Assembly: GCF_019456655.1 (NCBI RefSeq)
Contig: NZ_CP080332.1
Location: 3,224,001-3,288,000, forward strand
Length of the DNA stretch: 64,000 bases
Source of the DNA: Mycolicibacterium diernhoferi
GTDB taxonomy: Bacteria > Actinomycetota > Actinomycetes > Mycobacteriales > Mycobacteriaceae
Direction: 5' to 3'
Part shown: positions 26,315-36,260 of the stretch, one piece after another
How the letters are laid out: each line of letters begins with the position of its first letter
How positions within the stretch are numbered: the stretch's first letter is position 1
Program-made: the position numbers and the translations under genes
The notes under the pieces: generated by a model
Told to the model about the DNA's origin: nothing
What the model saw: the letters and a program-made list of their open reading frames with translations, nothing else
Databases searched by the model: none

Positions 26315-27571
26315 TCAGCTGAACGAGGAGCGCGGCGCGCCGATGCCCGGATCGATCTTGACCGGGCCGGCGGCCGAAGGGGCGATCGGGAAGTCGAAGA
26401 TCGCGGTCGGAATGTACACCGTTGCACAGGCATTCGGTATGTCCACGACACCGGACAGCCTGCCCTCGATGGGCGCGGCGCCGAGCAGCAGATAGGCCTG
26501 CTCCGGGCTGTAGCCGAACTTGGTCAGGTAGTCGATCGCGTGCAGGCAGGCCCGCTGGTAGGACAGATGCGAGTCCAGGTAGCGCTGTTCGCCGTCGAGA
26601 GTGACCGAAGTGCCGGAGAATGCCAGCCACTCCGAGTACTGCGGATCGGTGTTTCCCGGCATGAAGATGGCGTTCTCGCTGACCCCGTAGGTCTCCATGC
26701 CGCCGGGGATCACGTCGACGCGCAGGTCGATGAACCCGCCCATCTCGATGGCCCCACAGAAGGTGATCTCGCCGTCACCCTGCGAGAAGTGCAGGTCGCC
26801 CACCGACAGATTGGCGCCGTCGACGAACACCGGGTAGAAGATGCGGCTGCCCTTGGTGAGGTTCTTGATGTCCTGGTTGCCGCCGTTCTCCCGCGGCGGG
26901 GCGGTCCGCGCGGCCTCGGCGGCGGCCTTGACGAAGCCATCCCCGGAGAGGCCACCCAGAATCGCGTCCTGAGGCTCGGGCGGCAGCGCCAGTGGCGGCA
27001 CCCGGTCGGGGTCGGTGGCGATCAGCGCCGCCTCGCGGGTGTTCCAGGTGGACAGCAGTTTCGCCGACGGCGCGGTACCCATCAGTCCGGGGTGGACGAT
27101 GCCGGTGAACTCGACCCCGGGAATGTGGCGCGAGGTCGCCTTCTGCCCGGAGAAGTCCCAGATCGCCTTGTAGGCATCGGGGAACTGTTCGGTGAGAAAG
27201 CCGCCACCGTTCTCGGTCGGGAAGATCCCGGTGTAACCCCAGCCCTGGCCGGCCAGCGGGCCGGAATCCTCCTGCGGGATCGGGCCCACGTCGAGGATGT
27301 CGACGATCAGCAGGTCGCCGGGCTTTGCACCCTCGACCGCGATCGGGCCGGACAGCACGTGCACCGTGGTCAAGGGGGCGTTGAGGATGTCGTCGGCGGA
27401 ATCGTCGTTGACGATCGCACCGTCGAACCACTCACGGCAGTGCACCCGGAACGAGTCACCCTTCTTGACCGTCACCGCCGCCGGGATATCCGGATGCCAG
27501 CGATTGTGGCCGAGCTTCTCCTGGTCGGTGAACTTCTTGGTGGAATCCAGCGGGAATACGACGTCGGGCAT
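26315..27571 (-). CDS. fmdA: Formamidase/acetamidase (FmdA/AmdA family)
   Basis: 418 residues, the normal family length. FmdA/AmdA features seen are DGAIVNDDSADDILNAPL, HVLSGPIAVEGAKPGDLL, FPTENGGGFL, HPGLMGTAP and GDLHFSQGDGEITFCGAIEM, which carry the metal and active-site residues. The enzyme hydrolyses formamide or acetamide to the acid and ammonia in the cytosol. ATG 27571 follows AAGGAG and lies 9 bp after fmdB, so fmdB-fmdA is an operon, as in other actinobacteria and in M. smegmatis acetamidase. It stands at the downstream end of the nitrogen-catabolic block and a PucR regulator gene is next to it. Confidence 0.93.
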   Translation of the reverse strand: MPDVVFPLDSTKKFTDQEKLGHNRWHPDIPAAVTVKKGDSFRVHCREWFDGAIVNDDSADDILNAPLTTVHVLSGPIAVEGAKPGDLLIVDILDVGPIPQEDSGPLAGQGWGYTGIFPTENGGGFLTEQFPDAYKAIWDFSGQKATSRHIPGVEFTGIVHPGLMGTAPSAKLLSTWNTREAALIATDPDRVPPLALPPEPQDAILGGLSGDGFVKAAAEAARTAPPRENGGNQDIKNLTKGSRIFYPVFVDGANLSVGDLHFSQGDGEITFCGAIEMGGFIDLRVDVIPGGMETYGVSENAIFMPGNTDPQYSEWLAFSGTSVTLDGEQRYLDSHLSYQRACLHAIDYLTKFGYSPEQAYLLLGAAPIEGRLSGVVDIPNACATVYIPTAIFDFPIAPSAAGPVKIDPGIGAPRSSFS

Positions 27572-27580
27572 GGAAACTCC

Positions 27581-27862
27581 TTATGCTCGTGGCAGTTTCT
27601 GGTGAAGTGGATTGGTGGTGACCTTCTGGCGCCGGCCTGGCGCCGACGGTCGGGTCACCACCGCCGGCCGGTCGGCGGTCGCCCGGGTGGCATCCTGCAG
27701 TGCCATCGCGGCACCGGAACGGCCCAGGTTCGGGGCCGCGATCATCCTGCGGGCCGGACCCGCACAGGTGGGACAGTCGATGACGTCGGGACGATCATTC
27801 ATCGAATACAGCTGCGCCGTAACATCGCAGCCTGACTTGCAACGAAATACGTAGAGAACCAA
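27581..27862 (-). CDS. fmdB: FmdB family zinc-ribbon protein
   Basis: 93 residues. The first 45 form a zinc ribbon with cysteines in FRCKSGCDV and CPTCAGPARRMI, the usual FmdB layout, ending in a basic, disordered tail. The start is the rare TTG at 27862, giving MVLYVFRC, which matches the family opening, and GAGGAA lies 6 nt before it. FmdB proteins accompany fmdA and are thought to regulate amidase formation, though the mechanism is not settled. It is the first gene of fmdBA and has about 190 bp of upstream sequence as promoter. Confidence 0.85.
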   Translation of the reverse strand: MVLYVFRCKSGCDVTAQLYSMNDRPDVIDCPTCAGPARRMIAAPNLGRSGAAMALQDATRATADRPAVVTRPSAPGRRQKVTTNPLHQKLPRA

Positions 27863-28055
27863 TAGGTTTCCTCACGGTGTCTGACGGTTGCACTGAAGAC
27901 AACCGCAACACTACCGCCGGGGGCCGGGGTCGGCAGGGCACTTGGACAAGCCTACATACGAACCGGATGCGGGTGTAGCGGTGTACAGACGTACCCACCG
28001 GCCAGCCCTGAACCGCAGCGACTACTTTGCGCCGGAGTGCTTCCCGCTCAACGGA

Positions 28056-29258
28056 TCAGCGGCGCGGCACGGCGCCTGCGTTACCGGTGGCGGCGTGCCG
28101 GGCCGCGGTGTCGCGCATCCCCATCTTCACCGCGGCCCACAGAGCGATGCGGAAGTTGATCCGGTCGGTCTCTTCGAACGGATTGGCGCCGGTGAGCTCG
28201 GTGACCTTCGCCAACCGGTTACGCAGCGTGTTCACGTGGACGTACAGCGTGTTGGCGGCGGAGCTGATGTCGCGACCCGGCGCCAGGAAGGCCTCCAGGG
28301 AGGACACCAGATGGGAATTGTTCACCCGGTCGTGATCGACCAGCGGGACCAGCAGCCGCTGCACGAACGGGACCAGCCGGACCTTCGGGACGGCTGCCAG
28401 CAGGCCGTCCAGGGTGGCGATCTCGTCGATGTGCACAGTGCGCCGCCACCGGACGGCTTCCTGCAACGCCTCCATGGCCTCCGGGATGGCATAGGCCATC
28501 GACTGGGCGTCCGGCGCCATCGCGACGCCGCAGACCAACTCGGACTCCGACAGCGCGGCGGTGAATTCCTCGGTGTGCGCGCACAGCGCCACCAGGCCGT
28601 CGTCGAGGAGCGCCACCGTACCGCCGTGGGAGTCCACCAGCTGGTGCACCGCACCGTGGGAGTCCGGCGCGAAGGCGCACACCACCACCGGGCCGGCGGC
28701 CAGGCCATGCTCGGCCAGGGCACTCTGCACCGGGCCGACCCCCAACGTGCCCGCCACGAACCAGCGCAGGAGCGACCCCAGGTCGCGTTCCCGGGCACCG
28801 ACCTCGCGGTCGGCGGTTCGCATCGATTCGGCCCAGTCCACGATCCGCCGGAACGGAATCTCGGCGGGCAGCGTCAACAGCGGCAGGCCCGCATCCTGGC
28901 AGGCGTGCAGCAACGCCGCCGGTGGCTCGTCGAACAGGTCGCCGAGTCCGACCACCAGTGCGCTGACACCCTGACCGGCCAGCGTGCTGACGTACCGCCG
29001 GACCGCCGCGTCCGGCTGATCGGCCACCGGTACGCCGACGCTGAGGATGAGCTCCCCGCCCGACAGGTACGGCGAGGGGTCGGCCAACTCGGTCGGATAG
29101 ACGTAGCGGATCGGCTGCGCCGACTCCCGGATCGGCGTCAGCGCGCCGACCTGCAGAGTCGGTTCCGAGAGCAGGTCGCACAGCCGCATGGTGCCGTCGT
29201 GCGGTGCTGCACAGTCGACCGCCGCAGCGCGCTCCGCTATCCGCCCAGCTGAGGTCAT
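28056..29258 (-). CDS. PucR family transcriptional regulator
   Basis: 400 residues. The N-terminal sensor domain starts near residue 24 (MRLCDLLSEPTLQVGAL) and matches the purine-catabolism regulatory type. The middle GGDEF-like segment is degenerate. The C-terminal PucR helix-turn-helix at about 335-385 has the family signature NTLYVHVNTLRNRLAKVTELTG. PucR-type proteins activate purine, amine or other nitrogen catabolic genes when the substrate is present. ATG 29258 follows GGGAGGT. It lies 57 bp after the reductase gene and before fmdBA, so it is the likely regulator of both sets. Its operator is not identified. Confidence 0.9.
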   Translation of the reverse strand: MTSAGRIAERAAAVDCAAPHDGTMRLCDLLSEPTLQVGALTPIRESAQPIRYVYPTELADPSPYLSGGELILSVGVPVADQPDAAVRRYVSTLAGQGVSALVVGLGDLFDEPPAALLHACQDAGLPLLTLPAEIPFRRIVDWAESMRTADREVGARERDLGSLLRWFVAGTLGVGPVQSALAEHGLAAGPVVVCAFAPDSHGAVHQLVDSHGGTVALLDDGLVALCAHTEEFTAALSESELVCGVAMAPDAQSMAYAIPEAMEALQEAVRWRRTVHIDEIATLDGLLAAVPKVRLVPFVQRLLVPLVDHDRVNNSHLVSSLEAFLAPGRDISSAANTLYVHVNTLRNRLAKVTELTGANPFEETDRINFRIALWAAVKMGMRDTAARHAATGNAGAVPRR

Positions 29259-29315
29259 CGGTACCTCCCAGCGAGAGCGTTCATGTCAGGCGAGTCTAGG
29301 ACCGTGAAACCATCG

Positions 29316-30263
29316 CTACAGGTCGAGGGCCAGTCTGCTGCCGCAGCGAGCCCGTGATACGCAAATCATCATAGTGCTGTTCGCCTGCCGCTCGCTCTCG
29401 GTCAGCAAATCGTCACGGTGGTCAACATCACCGCCGAGCACCTTGGTCTCACAGGTCCCGCAGAACCCGGCCCCGCAGGAATAGGGCGTGTCCGGCAGCG
29501 CCTGCAGCACCGCGTCGAGCACGCTCTCCCCCGCCCCCACCGAGACGGTCACCCCAGTGCGGACCAGTTCCACCTCGAAGGCCTCGTCATCGTCGGCCGC
29601 CACGGGTGCGGAGCTTCCGTCGGCGGTGAACCGCTCGATGTGCACCACCCGGTCCGCGAACTGCTCCCCCGCCTGCTGGACGGCCGCCAGCATCCCCGGC
29701 GGGCCGCAGCAGTACACGTGGGTGCCCGCGGGACTGGCGTCGAACAGCCCCGCGATGTCGGGCAGCCCGTCCTCGTCCTGCGGCATCACCGTGACGTCCG
29801 CCCATGCCTGCAGACGGTCCAGGTACGCCATCGCCGTCCGGGTGCGCCCGCCGTAGACCAACCGCATCGGAGGCGGGCTGGGCTGGGCCCGCAGGGCTTC
29901 CATCATCGCCAGGATGGGGGTGATGCCGATCCCGCCGGCCAGGAACAGGTACTGCGGGGCCGGCCCCAACTCGAAGTTGTTGCGCGGCTCGCCGACCTCC
30001 AGTGCCTCCCCGATGCGTAGCTGTTGGTGGATCTCGCGTGAGCCGCCCCGCCCGTCGGCCACCAACAGCACCGCCACGGTGTAGCTGTACGGATCGTCGA
30101 GCGGACCGCACAGCGAGTACTGCCGGACCAGGCCCGACCCGAGGGTGAGCGGGACATGGGCGCCGGGCGCCCATGCCGGCAGCCGCTCCCCGGTGGGACT
30201 GCGCAGTTGCACCGAGATCACACCGTCTGCTTCCAGCCGGAGTTGTGTGACGTGCAGCTTCAT
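29316..30263 (-). CDS. PDR/VanB-type oxidoreductase (FMN, NAD, 2Fe-2S)
   Basis: 315 residues in the order flavin domain, NAD domain, ferredoxin. The FMN-type flavin domain has RQYSLCGPLDD (about residue 47). The NAD-binding part has FLAGGIGITPILAMM (near 107) and YCCGPPGML (near 185). The C-terminal plant-type 2Fe-2S domain has CGAGFCGTCETKVLGG and a final cysteine in MMICVSRA. Such reductases pass electrons from NAD(P)H to a Rieske oxygenase (vanillate demethylase VanB type). The gene begins 4 bp after the Rieske gene, so the two form one enzyme system. It is cytosolic. Confidence 0.93.
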   Translation of the reverse strand: MKLHVTQLRLEADGVISVQLRSPTGERLPAWAPGAHVPLTLGSGLVRQYSLCGPLDDPYSYTVAVLLVADGRGGSREIHQQLRIGEALEVGEPRNNFELGPAPQYLFLAGGIGITPILAMMEALRAQPSPPPMRLVYGGRTRTAMAYLDRLQAWADVTVMPQDEDGLPDIAGLFDASPAGTHVYCCGPPGMLAAVQQAGEQFADRVVHIERFTADGSSAPVAADDDEAFEVELVRTGVTVSVGAGESVLDAVLQALPDTPYSCGAGFCGTCETKVLGGDVDHRDDLLTESERQANSTMMICVSRARCGSRLALDL

Positions 30264-30267
30264 CGCA

Positions 30268-31302
30268 TCAGTTCCGCCCGGGCTCGTCGGTGTTCAGTCC
30301 GCGCGCCTCCTGGATGGCCTGCACCGCGAATTGCGTTGCCCGGCGGTAGTTCAGCGTGTAGATGTCCGCGGGTGCGGAGACTTCGACAGCCTGGCCGGCC
30401 AGCGGAACCTCCTTGGGTTCAAGGCCACCCAGTATCGGGGTGTCCTCGTTGAACACCTTGGTCTCGATTTCCAGGATCTCGTCGACGGTGCCGCCACGGA
30501 AGTCACGATCGGTGGCGACACCCCAGAAGATGATGCACTTGTCGTAGCTGACCGGGGACGGGAAATCCACCAGATACCGCTTGCCGGTCTCCGGTCCGAA
30601 GTCGTACAGGATCGTCGCGATACCCGGCGCGTAGGAGTGGTAATGCATCCAGGAGTCGCCGATGTCGGAGAAGTCCGAATCCGGCACCTGCTGGTAGAAG
30701 TAGGACGCCCAGACCTCGCGGCCCTCCCGCTTGACGTCGAGATCGGAGACCACCGGATTCACCTCGCCCATCGAATCCGCGTGCACGAACGGGAAATGCG
30801 CCATGTCACGGAAGTTCTCGGTCGCCGCCATGAAGCCGCAATCGGCGTGAATCGGTTCGGCCGCACGCCATTCCAGTTCCAGATCGGCGATCTCCGGCGG
30901 GTTCGGCAGGTCGAAGACCGGGTCTCCCAGGCACGTCCAGATGTGCTCGAACCGCTCGATCACCGGGTAGGCCTTGATCGCGGCCTTCGGCGGAATCCGG
31001 CCGCCCTCGGGCAGTGAGGGGATGGCCGTGCACGCTCCGGACTGGCCGTCGAACTGCCATCCGTGGTACGGGCAGGCGATACTGTCACCTTCGACGACAC
31101 CGTCGGCCAGGTTGCCGCCACGATGGATGCAACGGCGATCGGTGACCCGGGCCGCGCCGGTGGAATCACGGAAGACCACCAGGTTGTGATCGAGCAGGCG
31201 GGCCTCCTGCGGTGTGTCGATGTCCTGTGAGCGGGCCACCACGAACCACACGTGCTGATAGGCCTCACGGAGCTTCTCCGGGGTGAGCGCTTCCTGTTTC
31301 AT
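30268..31302 (-). CDS. Rieske non-heme iron oxygenase, alpha subunit (VanA-like)
   Basis: 344 residues from ATG 31302 (AAGGAG upstream). The Rieske cluster ligands are C58, H60, C77 and H80 (CIHRGG, CPYHGW). The mononuclear iron site is seen in TENFRDMAHFPFVH: D166 bridging, with H169 and H174 as ligands. The length and single-component oxygenase form match the vanillate O-demethylase/N-demethylase group, so the reaction is probably hydroxylation leading to O- or N-dealkylation. The start overlaps the deacetylase stop by 4 bp, and the electron-transfer partner is encoded 4 bp downstream. The neighbours suggest a nitrogen-containing substrate. I cannot name it. Confidence 0.92.
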   Translation of the reverse strand: MKQEALTPEKLREAYQHVWFVVARSQDIDTPQEARLLDHNLVVFRDSTGAARVTDRRCIHRGGNLADGVVEGDSIACPYHGWQFDGQSGACTAIPSLPEGGRIPPKAAIKAYPVIERFEHIWTCLGDPVFDLPNPPEIADLELEWRAAEPIHADCGFMAATENFRDMAHFPFVHADSMGEVNPVVSDLDVKREGREVWASYFYQQVPDSDFSDIGDSWMHYHSYAPGIATILYDFGPETGKRYLVDFPSPVSYDKCIIFWGVATDRDFRGGTVDEILEIETKVFNEDTPILGGLEPKEVPLAGQAVEVSAPADIYTLNYRRATQFAVQAIQEARGLNTDEPGRN

Positions 31303-32192
31303 CGGTCGATACTCCTTACGGTGGGCGTGAATTCGGGTCGGGTCAGGGTGCGCGGGGTGAGCTGCTGGGCCCGCACATGCTCGGCGATCTGTGCCATGCT
31401 CGCGATCCACACGTCGTCCATCGCGGCGACGTCGGCGATGAACTCCCGCAGTGCTGCCGCGCGGCCGGGCCGTCCGGACAGGAACGGGTGGTTGGTGAGG
31501 ATCCAGGCACCACCCACCTCCCGCATTGCGTCGAGTTCACTTCGGTAGAGCTCGATCGCCTTGGCCGGTGTCTCGATCATTCCGACGGAGAAGTCCGGCA
31601 CGAAGCAGTACTGCTGCCAGTCGTCGAGCGCCCAGCTGACCGGGAGTTCGACCAACGATTCACCGTCGGTGACTGCGAGTTCGTAGGGATGATCGGAATC
31701 CATCAGGGTGGAGTCGTAGAGGAAGCCGAACTCGGCGAGCAGTTTCGGTGTGTGCCAGTTCATCTCCCACATCGGGGCGCGGTACCCGACCGGGGTCACC
31801 CCGGTGACCTCGACCAGCGCGTCCATACCGCGCTGCAGATACGCGCGCTCGGTGGCCTCGTCGACACCGACCAGCGACTCGTGCAGGTAACCGTGATGGG
31901 CGATCTCGTGTCCGGCCGTGACGAGCGAGCGGATCGGCTCGGGATGCCGGTGTGCGGTGTAGCCGGGAACGAAGAACGTGGCCGGGACCTGCAGGTCGTC
32001 CAGGATGCCGAGCAGCCGCGGTATGCCCACCAGCGGCCCGTAGGCCTGATGCGACATCGAGCCCATCCGATCGGCGAAGGCCGGATCTGTGGTCAGCAGC
32101 GGAGATTCGGCATCCACGTCGAAGGTGAAGGCCACGGCGCAGGTCTTGCCGTCCGGCCAGGACACCGGTCCGGCGGGGATCAGCGCGGTCAT
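31299..32192 (-). CDS. NodB-fold polysaccharide deacetylase family protein
   Basis: 297 residues. The NodB metal motif [10 protein letters not shown] has D25 and D27; the histidines are in [13 protein letters not shown] (H99, H100, H104). [10 protein letters not shown] is the third block, and [10 protein letters not shown] carries the late His. The FDVDAES form is typical of cytosolic members that hydrolyse C-N bonds, such as PuuE-type allantoinase and related amidases, rather than of secreted chitin/peptidoglycan deacetylases. There is no signal peptide, which supports that. It overlaps by 4 bp both the ureohydrolase stop upstream and the Rieske start downstream, so translation is coupled. 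Role inferred: deformylation, deacylation or ring opening of a nitrogen compound. Confidence 0.88.
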
Positions 32193-33148
32193 CGCTGCAC
32201 CTTCCTTGCGAATACGGACAGGAACTCCCAGGTCACGTTGGCGGCAGCGATCGAGGTGATCTCGGCGTGGTCGTAGGCCGGAGAGACCTCCACGACGTCG
32301 GCGCCGACGAGGTTCACGCCATCCAGACCGCGGACGATGTCGAGCAGTTCACGGCTGGACATGCCACCGGCCTCGGGGGTCCCGGTGCCCGGCGCGTGAG
32401 CCGGGTCCAGGACGTCGATGTCGACCGAGACGTAGACCGGCGCGTCACCGACCCGTTCCTTGATGCGTGCCAGAACGCCTTCGGCGCCCAGACTGTCGAT
32501 ATCGCGGCAGGTGATGACCGAGAACCCGAAGTTGGCGTCCTCGACCAGATCCTGGCGGCTGTAGATCGATCCGCGAACCCCGACATGGACATTGCTGTCG
32601 AGCAGGAGCCCCTCTTCATAGGCCCGCCGGAACGGCGATCCGTGCGTGATATCGGCTCCGTAGTAGGTGTCCCAGGTGTCCAGGTGCGCGTCGAAGTGCA
32701 CCAAGGCCATCGGGCCGTGCACCGAGTGCGCCGCCCGCAGCGACGGCAGTGCCACCGAGTGGTCGCCACCGAGGATGACCGCCCGGGCTCCCCCGGCCAG
32801 CAGACCGGTGAGCTCCCCGCTGATCTGGTCCACCGCCTGGCCGATGTCGAAGGGGTTGCAGGCGATATCGCCGGCGTCGGCGATCTGGCAGACCTCGAAC
32901 GGGCTGATGTCGAGTTCCGGGTTGTAACCCCGGATCAACCGCGAACCCTGCCGAATGGCGTTGGGGCCGAAGCGGGCACCCGGCCGGTAGGTGACGGCGC
33001 TGTCGAACGGCACGCCCACCAGGAGGACGTCGGCACTGCTGACATCCTCCAGCCGCGGCAGCCGAGCGAAGGTCGTCCAGCCCGCGTAGCGAGGTTGCTG
33101 TTGGGGGTCGGCCGGCCCCACGATGGCACGGCCGCTGTCGTTGCTCAT
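32189..33148 (-). CDS. Ureohydrolase (agmatinase/guanidino-acid hydrolase family)
   Basis: 319 residues. All six manganese-ligand positions are present: H130 (GGDHS), D153, H155 and D157 (HFDAHLDTW), D243 and D245 ([19 protein letters not shown]). The enzyme cleaves a guanidino group to release urea. Family members act on agmatine, guanidinobutyrate, guanidinopropionate and, in recent reports, on guanidine or metformin-type compounds, so calling it agmatinase would be premature. The RPGARFGP and HGSPFRRA loops fit the agmatinase branch. ATG 33148 follows AGGAAAGG. It overlaps the next gene by 4 bp. No urease or urea carboxylase gene is in the window. Confidence 0.92.
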
Positions 33149-33178
33149 TTACTACCTTTCCTGGCTTTACTGGCTTTC

Positions 33179-33883
33179 TCAGACACGATTTCTGGACAAT
33201 CCGCCGTCGACGTTCACGATCTGGCCGACAGCTGCCCCGAGTTGACGCTGGCAGAGCAGTCCGATGGTGGCGGCCACCTGCTCCACCGAGCCCACCGCGC
33301 CGGTCGGCGGCAACGGTGCGGACGCGTCGCAGACCGACCACTCCGAATCCACCGCGCCGACGGCGACGGCATTGACACCCACCCCGAAACGGCCGAAGTC
33401 ACGGGTCAGGGTTTTGGTCAGAGCGACAATCCCGCCCGCGGCGGTCGCCACCGCCGAAAGGCCCGCACCCCCGATATGCCAACGCGAGGTGGTCAGCACG
33501 ATGCGTCCGCCGGAGTTGTTGTCGCGCATCGAGGTTGCCGCCGCCTGCGCGAAGAGGAAGCTTCCGGTCAGCGCGGAATCCACATGCTGCCAGAAGTCCG
33601 TCATCGACAGTTCGGTCAGGGGTGCGACGGTGGGCAGTCCGTGCGCGAGGACGAGGGCATCGATGCCGCCCATCGCCGCCACCGCCCGTTCGACCGCATC
33701 CTGCGCCTGCTCCACCGCACCAGGTCGGGCGTACACCTCCGGCGGGCCGTCGGGCACCGGGGCGTACCCCGCTGCCGCGTAGGTCCCGAAGGTATCTGCC
33801 CCACCGGCGATGAAGTGCTCGCGCACCGCCGCACCGAGTCGAGTATCCACACCGGTGACGAGCACCCGCGACTTGGCATCCAT
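33179..33883 (-). CDS. SDR-fold protein lacking catalytic Tyr and Lys
   Basis: 234 residues with an overall SDR fold, starting VLVTGVDTRLGAAV and ending QIVNVDGGLSRNRV as in FabG relatives. The motifs are broken: TGxxxGxG is TGVDTRLG, NNAG is LAHG (79-82), and aligning around SAVATAAGGIVALTKTL puts Val145 where the Tyr and Ala149 where the Lys should be. It is therefore unlikely to be a normal dehydrogenase. It may be a partner for the active SDR encoded just upstream (stop and start share one base, TGATG), as in heterodimeric SDR pairs. ATG 33883 is chosen because of that overlap. Confidence 0.8.
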   Translation of the reverse strand: MDAKSRVLVTGVDTRLGAAVREHFIAGGADTFGTYAAAGYAPVPDGPPEVYARPGAVEQAQDAVERAVAAMGGIDALVLAHGLPTVAPLTELSMTDFWQHVDSALTGSFLFAQAAATSMRDNNSGGRIVLTTSRWHIGGAGLSAVATAAGGIVALTKTLTRDFGRFGVGVNAVAVGAVDSEWSVCDASAPLPPTGAVGSVEQVAATIGLLCQRQLGAAVGQIVNVDGGLSRNRV

Positions 33884-34584
33884 CAGATCACCGTTCCGCT
33901 GTTGACCGACAACACTTCTCCGCACAGGAACAGGTCCTCCTCCACGAGCGCGCGGACCAATTCGGCCACCTCGCCGGGCAAGGCGATGCGTCCGGCCGGG
34001 ATGCTGTCGAGGAAACCCTGCTCCCGTTCCCAGGAGTCGGCGGGCAGCAGCGGGGTATCGCACGGGCCCGGCGCCACCGCGTTGACCAGCACCCCGTCCG
34101 GGGCCACCTCGACGGCGATGCTGCGCAGCAGGCTCAACGCGGCGGCCTTCGCCGCGGCGTAGTGCGCGTCGTTGCTGCCGCCGCCGATGGCGCGCTCGGA
34201 GGCGATACCGACGATCCGTCCGCTGCCCCGCTCGCGCATCTCCGGGAGCACCGCTGCGCAGATATGTGCCAGGCCGCCGACGTGGACGCGCAGCATCCGC
34301 TCCCAGGCCGACGGTGAGATCTCCAGCGCCGGCGTCTCCTCATAGTGCCCGGCACAGATGACCGCAGCGTCGATGCGGCCGAAACGTGCTCGGATTTCTG
34401 CGATCCCGTCCGCCACGGCACTTTCGTCGGCGACGTCGGCGACCAGCCACATATCGGTGTCCGGCGCCGGCTCCCGCGATATCGAGGTGACGATCCAGCC
34501 CCGCGCCCGGAGCAACCGCGCGATCGCCGCACCGATGCCGCTGCCGGCGCCGGTGATCACGGCTACCTGTCCGATGTCGCTCAC
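33883..34584 (-). CDS. Short-chain dehydrogenase/reductase
   Basis: 233 residues from GTG 34584, whose GTGA overlaps the permease stop. The cofactor motif TGAGSGIG follows VAVITG at the start, DVADESAV marks the adenine site, and the catalytic Tyr-Lys are in AHYAAAKAAALSLL. Unlike its neighbour it has the full active site. The C-terminus (LCGEVLSVNSGTVI) is FabG-like. It would oxidise an alcohol or reduce a carbonyl formed in the pathway of this operon. It is probably translated together with the permease and the inactive SDR. Confidence 0.88.
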   Translation of the reverse strand: MSDIGQVAVITGAGSGIGAAIARLLRARGWIVTSISREPAPDTDMWLVADVADESAVADGIAEIRARFGRIDAAVICAGHYEETPALEISPSAWERMLRVHVGGLAHICAAVLPEMRERGSGRIVGIASERAIGGGSNDAHYAAAKAAALSLLRSIAVEVAPDGVLVNAVAPGPCDTPLLPADSWEREQGFLDSIPAGRIALPGEVAELVRALVEEDLFLCGEVLSVNSGTVI

Positions 34585-36041
34585 ACCGGCTCCTTCACGG
34601 TCTCGGCCGCCGGTTCGGCGTCGCCGTCCGGAGTCGCCCGCCCGACCTTTCGAACCTTCACGATCACCACGCCCAGGGCGAGGATCGCGCCCATCGCAAC
34701 GAAGAAGGCCCAGTTGATGAACCACGATTCGGACACCGTGCGCGGCCAGACGATGTTGACGAAGGCGAATCCCGCCCACAGCGTCGCCAGCGTGGTCACC
34801 GGGGTGCTCCACCGGCCCAGGCTCCACGGTCCGGGTTCCCATTTGCCGCGCAACCGGGCGACCAGGCCGGTCACCAGGGGAAACAGGAAGGCCAGGTAGT
34901 AGCCGCCGGCCGTGAAGGTGACCAGCACCGAATACACGTCGGTGGCCGAGATCAGGTAGACCACAGCACCGATCACGGTGGTGACCAGAATTGCGCTCAT
35001 CGGCTGCGCTTCGGCCTTGGACAGTTTGGCCAGCACCCGGGAACCCGGGAGGACCTTGTCGCGGGCGAAGGCCCAGATAACCCGGGACGCCGAGGCCTGC
35101 AGCGCCAGGAAGCTGGCCAGGAAGCCGATGACGAATGTCAGCAGGATCGGTTTGACGGCGGATTCACCGAGCGCGGCGCCGAGCACGTAGGTCACCGGGT
35201 CGCTGACCTCGCCGGAGGCGATCTTGTCGAAGTCCGGCACCGCCAACGTGACCGCCAATGAGGCGTACGCGATGACGATCGCGATGAACGACACCGAGAA
35301 CAACATCGCCTTGGGGACGTTGCGCTGCGGTTCCTGGACTTCTTCGGCGATCGCACCGGCACTTTCGAAGCCCAGGATCGACCAGCTGGTGAAGGCCAGC
35401 GCAGCCAGGAACGGGCCGGAGATGTACGCCCAGGTCCAGCCGCTGCCGAAGTCGACGCCTTGCAGGATGACGTCCAGACCGTGATGGCGATGGAAGATCA
35501 GCAGGTAGGTGCTCAGGCCGACCGAAGCGATGATCTCGGCGACGATGCTGCCGACCATCAGGGTCTTCAGAAAGATCCGGCCCAGGATGTTCGCGCCGGT
35601 GCCGGCGAGCAGGATCAGCAGCGCGATGATGCTCTGCTGCACCGCGGTTGGGCCGTGGATGCCGACCAGCTCGGCCAGGAAGCCGGCGCCCCCGTAGGCC
35701 ACGGTGGCCATGATGATGACCAGCGCCCACATGTAGACCCAGCCGGCGAACCAGCCGGCCACCTCACCGGCCAGCCGTTTGGTCCACTGGTAGATGGATC
35801 CTTCGAAGGGCCAGCGGGAGACCAGTTCAGCGAAGGCGAGCGCGATGATGAACTGGCCGGTGCCGACGATGACGAAGGTCCACCAGAAGCCGGGGCCGGC
35901 GGTGGACAGCGACAGCCCGTAGATGCCGTACATCGCCACGATCGGCGATATGAACGCGAAGGCGAACGCGAACGCCGACCACAGCGAAAACTCCCGCTTC
36001 AATTCCGCTGGCGCGGAGGTTGTTTGACCGCTCGATGTCAC
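34581..36041 (-). CDS. APC superfamily amino acid/amine permease
   Basis: 486 residues from GTG 36041 (AAAGGGTGA upstream) with about twelve membrane segments. The start SLWSAFAFAFAFISPIVAMYGIYG and the GFESAGAIAEEVQEPQRNVPKAML block are typical of the amino acid-polyamine-choline superfamily, in the branch of GABA, choline/ethanolamine or polyamine permeases. It is the first gene of the minus-strand operon and most likely brings in the substrate that the following enzymes degrade. The substrate is probably a cationic or zwitterionic amine, in line with the ureohydrolase. The promoter must lie in the 219 bp before the divergent GGPP synthase gene. Confidence 0.9.
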   Translation of the reverse strand: MTSSGQTTSAPAELKREFSLWSAFAFAFAFISPIVAMYGIYGLSLSTAGPGFWWTFVIVGTGQFIIALAFAELVSRWPFEGSIYQWTKRLAGEVAGWFAGWVYMWALVIIMATVAYGGAGFLAELVGIHGPTAVQQSIIALLILLAGTGANILGRIFLKTLMVGSIVAEIIASVGLSTYLLIFHRHHGLDVILQGVDFGSGWTWAYISGPFLAALAFTSWSILGFESAGAIAEEVQEPQRNVPKAMLFSVSFIAIVIAYASLAVTLAVPDFDKIASGEVSDPVTYVLGAALGESAVKPILLTFVIGFLASFLALQASASRVIWAFARDKVLPGSRVLAKLSKAEAQPMSAILVTTVIGAVVYLISATDVYSVLVTFTAGGYYLAFLFPLVTGLVARLRGKWEPGPWSLGRWSTPVTTLATLWAGFAFVNIVWPRTVSESWFINWAFFVAMGAILALGVVIVKVRKVGRATPDGDAEPAAETVKEPV

Positions 36042-36260
36042 TGAGTCACCCTTTCGCAAGCTCTCGGATACCGGAAGTATGGGCACGGATGTTCCGGTGC
36101 GGCAGCACGATCCCGCGATCTCGGGTGGCGCGCACAGTTGACGGATGCGGCACTGTAGGGCCGTACAACGTCGCCGCGCCGAACCGGCACGGCGTAGCTG
36201 CCGCCCATAGACTCGCGGCGCTCACAGCCACACCGGACAGCCACGAATAGATGAGGTGTC

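Follow-up and report, generated by a model that had tools for sequence, protein, structure and literature searches.

A conserved ten-gene cluster of Mycolicibacterium diernhoferi as a candidate two-unit regulon for breakdown of a cyclic guanidine-type compound

Background

What would a bacterium do with a permease, two short-chain dehydrogenases (SDRs), a ureohydrolase, a NodB-fold hydrolase, a Rieske oxygenase with its reductase, a PucR-family regulator, a zinc-ribbon protein and a formamidase, all encoded side by side? The question is raised by positions 26315..36041 of a stretch of 64,000 nucleotides from Mycolicibacterium diernhoferi (positions 3,224,001-3,288,000 of contig NZ_CP080332.1, assembly GCF_019456655.1), here called the window, whose host genome is one contig of 6.0 Mb. 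We propose that the cluster is a regulon of two units, one running from the permease to the PucR gene and the other being fmdBA, that would catabolise a cyclic guanidine-type compound. We hold this proposal tentatively, as a little short of an even chance. The literature we searched, with most subscription journals outside it, yielded no paper describing this gene set, in agreement with the initial annotation of the stretch, which knew of no pathway with exactly these genes.

In the proposed route the permease would import the compound, and the Rieske oxygenase with its reductase would hydroxylate a ring carbon next to nitrogen. The first dehydrogenase (SDR1) would oxidise the carbinolamine to a lactam, the NodB enzyme would hydrolyse the lactam and so open the ring to a guanidino acid, and the ureohydrolase would cleave that acid to yield urea together with a short amino acid, either beta-alanine or something close to it. 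The products would be taken by urease and methylmalonate-semialdehyde dehydrogenase encoded elsewhere in the genome, which holds two urease alpha matches and two dehydrogenases of the latter kind over the model cut-off. The likeliest class of substrate is the guanidino or amidine type; guanidino compounds were among the candidates of the initial annotation.

Results

Gene layout and conservation

All ten genes (Table 1) lie on the minus strand, running from 36041 to 26315 with no internal stops, and were assigned to families by Pfam and NCBIfam profile searches. From the permease to the PucR gene the junctions are -4, -1, +30, -4, -4, +4 and +57 bp; the gap from pucR to fmdB is 193 bp, and that from fmdB to fmdA is 9 bp. 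Because the 193-bp gap separates pucR from fmdB, fmdBA is probably a second transcription unit. Coordinates and profiles bear out the ten genes, families and junctions of the initial annotation, whose overlaps and gaps were exact but which left the 193-bp gap unmentioned.

A search for the same gene order in other actinobacteria, suggested at that stage, found the order from permease to PucR identical (by tblastn) in all ten clusters of the window's type. These are the window itself, L009 (Mycolicibacterium frederiksbergense), L010 (M. septicum) and seven loci from genomes of the window's genus (L143, L144, L159-L162 and L184; L numbers denote loci and G numbers genomes). The L010 reductase is only partly matched, its first part (L010:12900-13326) being unmatched, and the gene may be interrupted there or the assembly may be in error. 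Among nine clusters examined upstream, five (window, L143, L144, L159, L160) have a polyprenyl-synthase neighbour and four (L009, L010, L161, L162) do not. The fmdBA pair follows the cluster in eight of the ten, in both upstream settings, and is absent at L143 and L184.

A candidate operator shared by both units

Alignment of the upstream regions of the ten clusters brought out the palindrome CTGTAG-N4-CTACAG. It lies upstream of the permease gene in all ten (perfect in five, with one mismatch in four and two in the window) and, among the eight clusters with fmdBA, upstream of fmdB as well, perfect in three and with two mismatches in four, the window included; it is absent from that place in L009. 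Ten whole genomes, eight with the cluster and two without (G074 and G407), were scanned with a relaxed pattern, YTGTASNNNNCTACAS. The eight gave 11 distinct sites, every one upstream of a cluster permease or fmdB gene (the fmdB sites are three of the 11, in three of the six genomes among these eight that have fmdBA in the cluster), and the two cluster-free genomes gave none.

The relaxed pattern was derived from the same sites that it then counted, and its matches are not above chance in number: 17 rows counting both ways (palindromes being counted twice) against 17 for the reversed pattern. The window alone has two sites within two mismatches, against a mean of 1.4 in shuffles. The evidence is one of position, namely no site elsewhere, a site for each of the two units at 111 and 110 bp ahead of the start, and conservation within upstream DNA that has otherwise diverged. 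A scan of 19 loci of other types at up to two mismatches (five of them without a permease match) found a site shortly before the permease only in L012 (site 6877, permease match from 7038); L127, L132, L140, L155 and L183 have operator-like sites at other places. It would appear that the ten genes form one regulon, and the earlier idea of a single co-regulated route is strengthened by a candidate common to both units. The sites are observed; that the cluster's own PucR protein binds them and activates both units we infer as probable.

An older cassette without the oxygenase

The initial annotation drew one route that both oxidises and hydrolyses its substrate. A ureohydrolase scan with one genome per species gave 589 confirmed stretches, and among the best 80 of these NodB genes occur in 15 and Rieske homologues in two (L009 and L010). 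NodB and SDR genes stand beside the ureohydrolase without a Rieske gene at 11 loci of the 80 (L011, L012, L014, L018, L021, L024, L030, L033, L065, L079 and L083; L079 ends at a contig end, and L014 has the permease last). Two variants carry an NCS1-type permease, L025 with SDRs and L028, on a 7.8-kb contig, without SDRs and with a cytosine-deaminase-like gene; the remaining 65, many from Streptomyces and some on short contigs, have no NodB match. The recurring set of permease, SDR, SDR, ureohydrolase and NodB hydrolase, here termed the core cassette, has hosts that include Microlunatus, Cryobacterium, Mycobacterium and an Acidimicrobiaceae metagenome-assembled genome (MAG). M. diernhoferi has such a Rieske-free cassette as a second locus (L123, G000:C1:970000-989999), with a divergent PucR gene. 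The core genes occur in the same order at L135 and in a different order at the Rubrobacter-type loci L140, L141 and L155. A third ureohydrolase gene of M. diernhoferi lies at G000:C1:337780.

A quick ureohydrolase tree of 62 rows (with one in four of the Streptomyces-like remainder kept, and with flags on long branches) places the nine Rieske-type rows in one clade, with a Shimodaira-Hasegawa-like approximate likelihood ratio (SH-aLRT) of 100, and spreads the core rows. The ten Rieske-type rows also group in a NodB tree, which contains the window's row twice, nearest to the M. yunnanensis core protein and the lone NodB of L133 (SH-aLRT 92); L140 and L155 are identical in the rows of both trees. 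Five-gene cassettes lacking a Rieske gene occur in many actinobacteria. The oxygenase thus joined an existing route late, and that route must make chemical sense without it.

Changes in the two dehydrogenases

In the ten Rieske-type clusters SDR2 has V and A at the catalytic Tyr and Lys, and its YxxxK motif is lost, while the second SDR of core cassettes keeps Tyr and Lys in 14 of 14 examined (L140 and L155 alike). The altered protein is under purifying selection and is not decaying. When five relatives are compared, its ratio of non-synonymous to synonymous change (pN/pS) is 0.33-0.43; the permease, SDR1, ureohydrolase, NodB and Rieske genes give 0.15-0.28 and the reductase and PucR genes 0.29-0.47, and some pairs approach saturation of synonymous changes. 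In SDR1, all ten clusters carry Ser at the place of Asp37, and the next residue is Arg in nine of them and Gln in L184; core SDR1 rows have Asp37 in 15 of 17 and a gap in two.

Tyr and Lys are lost where the Rieske gene has been gained, and we read this as a sign that in the mycobacterial lineage the oxygenase took over from SDR2. In the ancestral cassette an active SDR2 would have made the carbinolamine from an alcohol; the oxygenase would then have replaced this step, and SDR2 would have been kept as a catalytically dead partner.

The oxygenase and its relatives

Both Rieske oxygenase motifs, CxH-x17-CxxH and DxxHxxxxH, are there. The VanA_C domain (PF19112) agrees with an earlier assignment to the VanA/VanB type, but the nearest solved relatives, distant as they are, prove to be SxtT/SxtDIOX (113 bits) and NdmA (83 bits). 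SxtT acts on guanidinium compounds, and is biosynthetic, unlike the catabolic role proposed here.

Rieske homologues at E <= 1e-60 were found in 16 of 148 genomes of the genus, and the surroundings of all 16 were examined. In fifteen of them the neighbours include SDR genes together with either NodB or creatininase. Seven are of the window's type; five (G505, G432, G444, G523, G445) combine NodB, an acyl-transferase-like gene, SDR, Rieske and reductase; and three (G498, G456, G531) combine creatininase, two SDRs, a TetR-type or like-sized gene (Pfam in one) and Rieske, with a ureohydrolase in one. The sixteenth, in G473, lies near a ureohydrolase. At the stricter threshold of E <= 1e-70, matches come from three of the 298 genomes of the order, including one (G548) that belongs to another family and is of the NodB/SDR type, and, among 394 genomes of the class, from the window's own alone.

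Six loci (L125-L128, L132, L183) hold clusters of NodB, SDR, Rieske and reductase genes in which no ureohydrolase was matched; the five scanned also carry an acyl-transferase-like gene (PF03417), which in three of them comes with a glyoxalase domain. They represent a probable sibling ring-opening pathway.

Ring opening by the NodB protein

The NodB protein of the window keeps the motifs TFDxD, HHxxxH and RAP, and matches 3RXZ, which we take to be an M. smegmatis protein, at 581 bits. Against the PuuE allantoinase model TIGR03212 it reaches 96 bits with a cut-off of 424.6, and the PuuE-type label of the initial annotation cannot stand. A published report describes 3RXZ as functionally uncharacterised and as one of two in its group with all five active residues kept (PMC10967932). 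By analogy, we propose a cyclic imide or lactam hydrolase as a better fit. The precedent is the nicotinate pathway of Aspergillus nidulans. There, as mutants and metabolites indicate (PMC9304392), a ring hydroxyl adjacent to nitrogen is oxidised by the SDR HxnW, and the imide so formed is opened by HxnM, a relative of HpPgdA and PuuE. As in the model for the cluster, an NAD-dependent SDR makes a ring carbonyl next to nitrogen and a relative of the NodB family then opens the ring. The Aspergillus pathway differs in being fungal, in its pyridine-derived ring, in using other oxidising enzymes with an old yellow enzyme upstream, and in ending with an amidase where the proposed route has a ureohydrolase.

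Among 396 genomes of the phylum, 14 hold NodB relatives at E <= 1e-40 (18 matches). At L129-L131 a creatininase-family gene (Pfam, 185-188 bits) replaces the NodB gene beside the SDRs and Rieske; L130 has a creatininase (268 bits, cut-off 235) at NodB's place and a ureohydrolase as well. These loci resemble the classical creatininase route in ring opening followed by guanidine cleavage (the ureohydrolase in one locus). Classical creatinine breakdown uses creatinase and is not known to involve an oxygenase or SDR.

Some further loci have NodB in other company. At L142 and L145-L149 a NodB gene and a pair of SDR genes are accompanied by genes for acyl-transferase-like proteins and luciferase-type monooxygenases (assigned by Pfam in L145 and L146, by BLAST clusters in L142 and L147-L149), with HyuA-type genes in L142, L145 and L147. 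On plasmids of Streptomyces anthocyanicus and Nocardia (L151, L152), NodB stands beside NADH:flavin oxidoreductase, urea carboxylase-associated protein, PucR and amidase genes, the Nocardia locus also having a cytosine permease; this looks like a reductive ring pathway.

The ureohydrolase and its products

The ureohydrolase has all its metal-binding motifs (GGDH, DAHxD, SxDxDxxDPA), and its nearest solved relatives are proclavaminate amidinohydrolase (1GQ6), 3-guanidinopropionase (3NIP) and guanidinobutyrase (3NIO). It scores 255-263 bits against solved guanidino-acid hydrolases and 205-213 against solved agmatinases. The described enzymes of the 3NIP, 3NIO and 1GQ6 types, to our knowledge, act on free guanidino acids, without SDR, NodB or Rieske partners. 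Urea is likely to be released.

The other product is suggested by neighbours of core cassettes. Rubrobacter radiotolerans has a run of genes for a coenzyme A (CoA)-acylating methylmalonate-semialdehyde dehydrogenase, alanine dehydrogenase, class III aminotransferase, ureohydrolase, permease, SDR, SDR and NodB, adjoining divergent PucR genes. In the Acidimicrobiaceae MAG the cassette is preceded by a gene for another dehydrogenase of this family, by two class III aminotransferase genes and by a divergent PucR gene. At 609 and 680 bits, both methylmalonate-semialdehyde dehydrogenases exceed the curated threshold of 448.5, and among all collected loci these two and L140 (a match of the Rubrobacter record) are the only ones with beta-alanine gene sets. 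That beta-alanine catabolic genes adjoin the cassette in two distant lineages suggests that the amine product is beta-alanine or something close to it, and that the ureohydrolase substrate resembles 3-guanidinopropionate.

Flanking genes

An aminotransferase gene at L143 was considered as a cluster member; it is paired with an NAD-glutamate dehydrogenase gene and a PucR gene of its own, and was treated as flank. L184 retains that flanking PucR and glutamate dehydrogenase, with no aminotransferase match. A Mutator-family transposase gene (L184:5851-7026) lies there between the cluster and the glutamate dehydrogenase gene.

Table 1. Genes of the cluster and candidate operator sites, in window coordinates
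Feature	Position	Strand	Basis and remarks
APC-type amino-acid permease, 486 aa, GTG start	34581..36041	-	PF13520 (165 bits); first gene of the unit; in 10/10 clusters
SDR1, short-chain dehydrogenase, Ser/Tyr/Lys intact; Ser in place of the core cassettes' Asp37	33883..34584	-	PF13561/PF00106 and residue alignment
SDR2, SDR-fold protein without catalytic Tyr and Lys (V and A there)	33179..33883	-	Alignment, 10/10 Rieske-type clusters
Ureohydrolase, nearest to guanidino-acid hydrolases	32189..33148	-	PF00491 (321 bits); nearest solved structures
NodB-fold hydrolase, proposed cyclic lactam/imide hydrolase, close to 3RXZ	31299..32192	-	Pfam, motifs, HxnM precedent
Rieske oxygenase, 2Fe-2S and mononuclear-iron motifs	30268..31302	-	PF00355 and PF19112; best PDB matches SxtT/SxtDIOX
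Rieske reductase, NAD-binding and 2Fe-2S ferredoxin domains	29316..30263	-	PF00175, PF00111
PucR-family regulator, proposed reader of the palindrome (predicted binding)	28056..29258	-	PF07905, PF13556
fmdB, zinc-ribbon protein, TTG start	27581..27862	-	TIGR02605 (29.5 bits, slightly below the cut-off of 31.3)
fmdA, formamidase	26315..27571	-	NF045496 equivalog (698 bits, cut-off 500)
Palindromic operator candidate 1	36153..36168	-	111 bp before permease start; 2 mismatches to consensus
Palindromic operator candidate 2	27973..27988	-	110 bp before fmdB start; 2 mismatches to consensus

Discussion

Several observations weigh against a cyclic guanidine route that ends in urea and beta-alanine. 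The substrate is a proposed one, and the route leaves FmdA without a substrate. The beta-alanine genes adjoin only core cassettes, with ureohydrolases 51-61% identical to the window's, and the argument therefore reaches the window by homology and not through its own neighbours. The ureohydrolase passes the agmatinase models TIGR01230 (236 bits, cut-off 174.3) and NF002564 (315, cut-off 302), and agmatine as substrate would be compatible with these scores; both models are also passed by the Rubrobacter homologue that lies next to beta-alanine genes, and they therefore fail to tell the substrates apart. The enzyme has Tyr at the place that corresponds to GpuA position 157, presumably a residue with a role in 3-guanidinopropionase, but relatives beside a thiamine pyrophosphate (TPP)-dependent guanidino-keto-acid decarboxylase-like gene share it, and we dropped it as proof of 3-guanidinopropionate. 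The active-site loss in SDR2, confined to one clade, is one evolutionary event and not ten, and the altered cofactor position of SDR1 may mean NADP use and a reductive role. The ureohydrolase was matched in one of the three creatininase-type clusters (L130), and at L133, L134, L136 and L138 NodB stands without any other gene of the query set being matched, so that NodB can occur independently of the cassette.

The formamidase would find its place if the ring carried a formamidine in place of a guanidine, so that a HutG-like ureohydrolase freed formamide and FmdA turned it into formate and ammonia. Release of formamide by the pathway is possible and would account for fmdBA, which has its own operator candidate and accompanies most clusters across two upstream contexts. 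Formimidoylglutamases belong to the same superfamily as the window's ureohydrolase, and Rieske-type ureohydrolases have Ala for Gly51 in nine of nine, in a loop that alignments predict to line the pocket. Among 20 chosen genomes of the genus, the six that carry the Rieske cluster all have fmdA, G405 at a place apart from the cluster; the M. diernhoferi genome itself holds one close fmdA besides a weak match of 30 bits. The gene occurs, however, in other surroundings in three of the 14 Rieske-free genomes as well (G074, G407, G408); two Rieske-type clusters lack fmdBA, and the pair in L009 lacks the operator. The nearest solved enzymes are guanidino-acid hydrolases, and the score with the HutG (formimidoylglutamase) model, 148 bits, falls short of its cut-off of 229. 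On balance we judge this version unlikely, though worth keeping in view. Nitrogen-limitation data for M. smegmatis list an agmatinase (msmeg_4459) and a formamidase (msmeg_4367) as induced (PMC4617892); neither could be linked to the cluster.

Still less probable is that NodB and the ureohydrolase act after the oxygenase has taken off the N-methyl or N-alkyl substituent of a creatinine-like compound or substituted guanidine. The demethylases NdmA and NdmB are among the solved Rieske relatives, and the G473 locus (L124) would fit dealkylation of a substituted guanidine: a Rieske protein 70% identical to the window's, its reductase and an NCS1 permease lie near a guanidinase-clade ureohydrolase (473 bits to 9FEK), together with a divergent GntR regulator and an APC permease. 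That ureohydrolase, however, is a doubtful guanidinase, having Ser at the marker Trp (a mapping that assumes a two-residue chain offset). Dealkylation would also leave SDR1 without a role and the active-site loss of SDR2 upon the oxygenase's arrival unexplained, and the ten genes include none for handling formaldehyde.

Purine or allantoin catabolism, with NodB as allantoinase and PucR as the usual purine regulator, has family resemblance to PuuE and PucR in its favour, but we reject it as highly improbable on the TIGR03212 score and on other grounds too, other purine genes being absent from the unit and the operator pattern not being found outside the cluster in the ten genomes scanned. That the genes are unrelated same-strand neighbours is hardly credible, although fmdBA and NodB relatives also occur alone, given the gene overlaps, the order kept in ten of ten clusters across two upstream contexts, and the common operator candidate.

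The cyclic guanidine route would be one form of a broader, modular actinobacterial pathway for cyclic guanidines or amidines, in which an oxidant module (SDR2, Rieske or luciferase-type monooxygenase) yielding a carbinolamine would be followed by SDR1, which would form a lactam, by NodB or creatininase, which would open it, and by a ureohydrolase releasing urea or formamide. The mycobacterial oxygenase would have replaced a dehydrogenase, and the dead SDR would serve as subunit or scaffold of the live one. We offer this wider scheme with some reserve, as a real possibility that we rate below even. Under the proposal, recurrent actinobacterial genes with vague names (agmatinase, polysaccharide deacetylase, SDRs) become a testable ring-opening pathway, and cyclic guanidines or amidines become a possible natural nitrogen source. 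The cluster would also be a case of the gain of an oxygenase paired with the loss of a dehydrogenase active site, the protein itself being retained.

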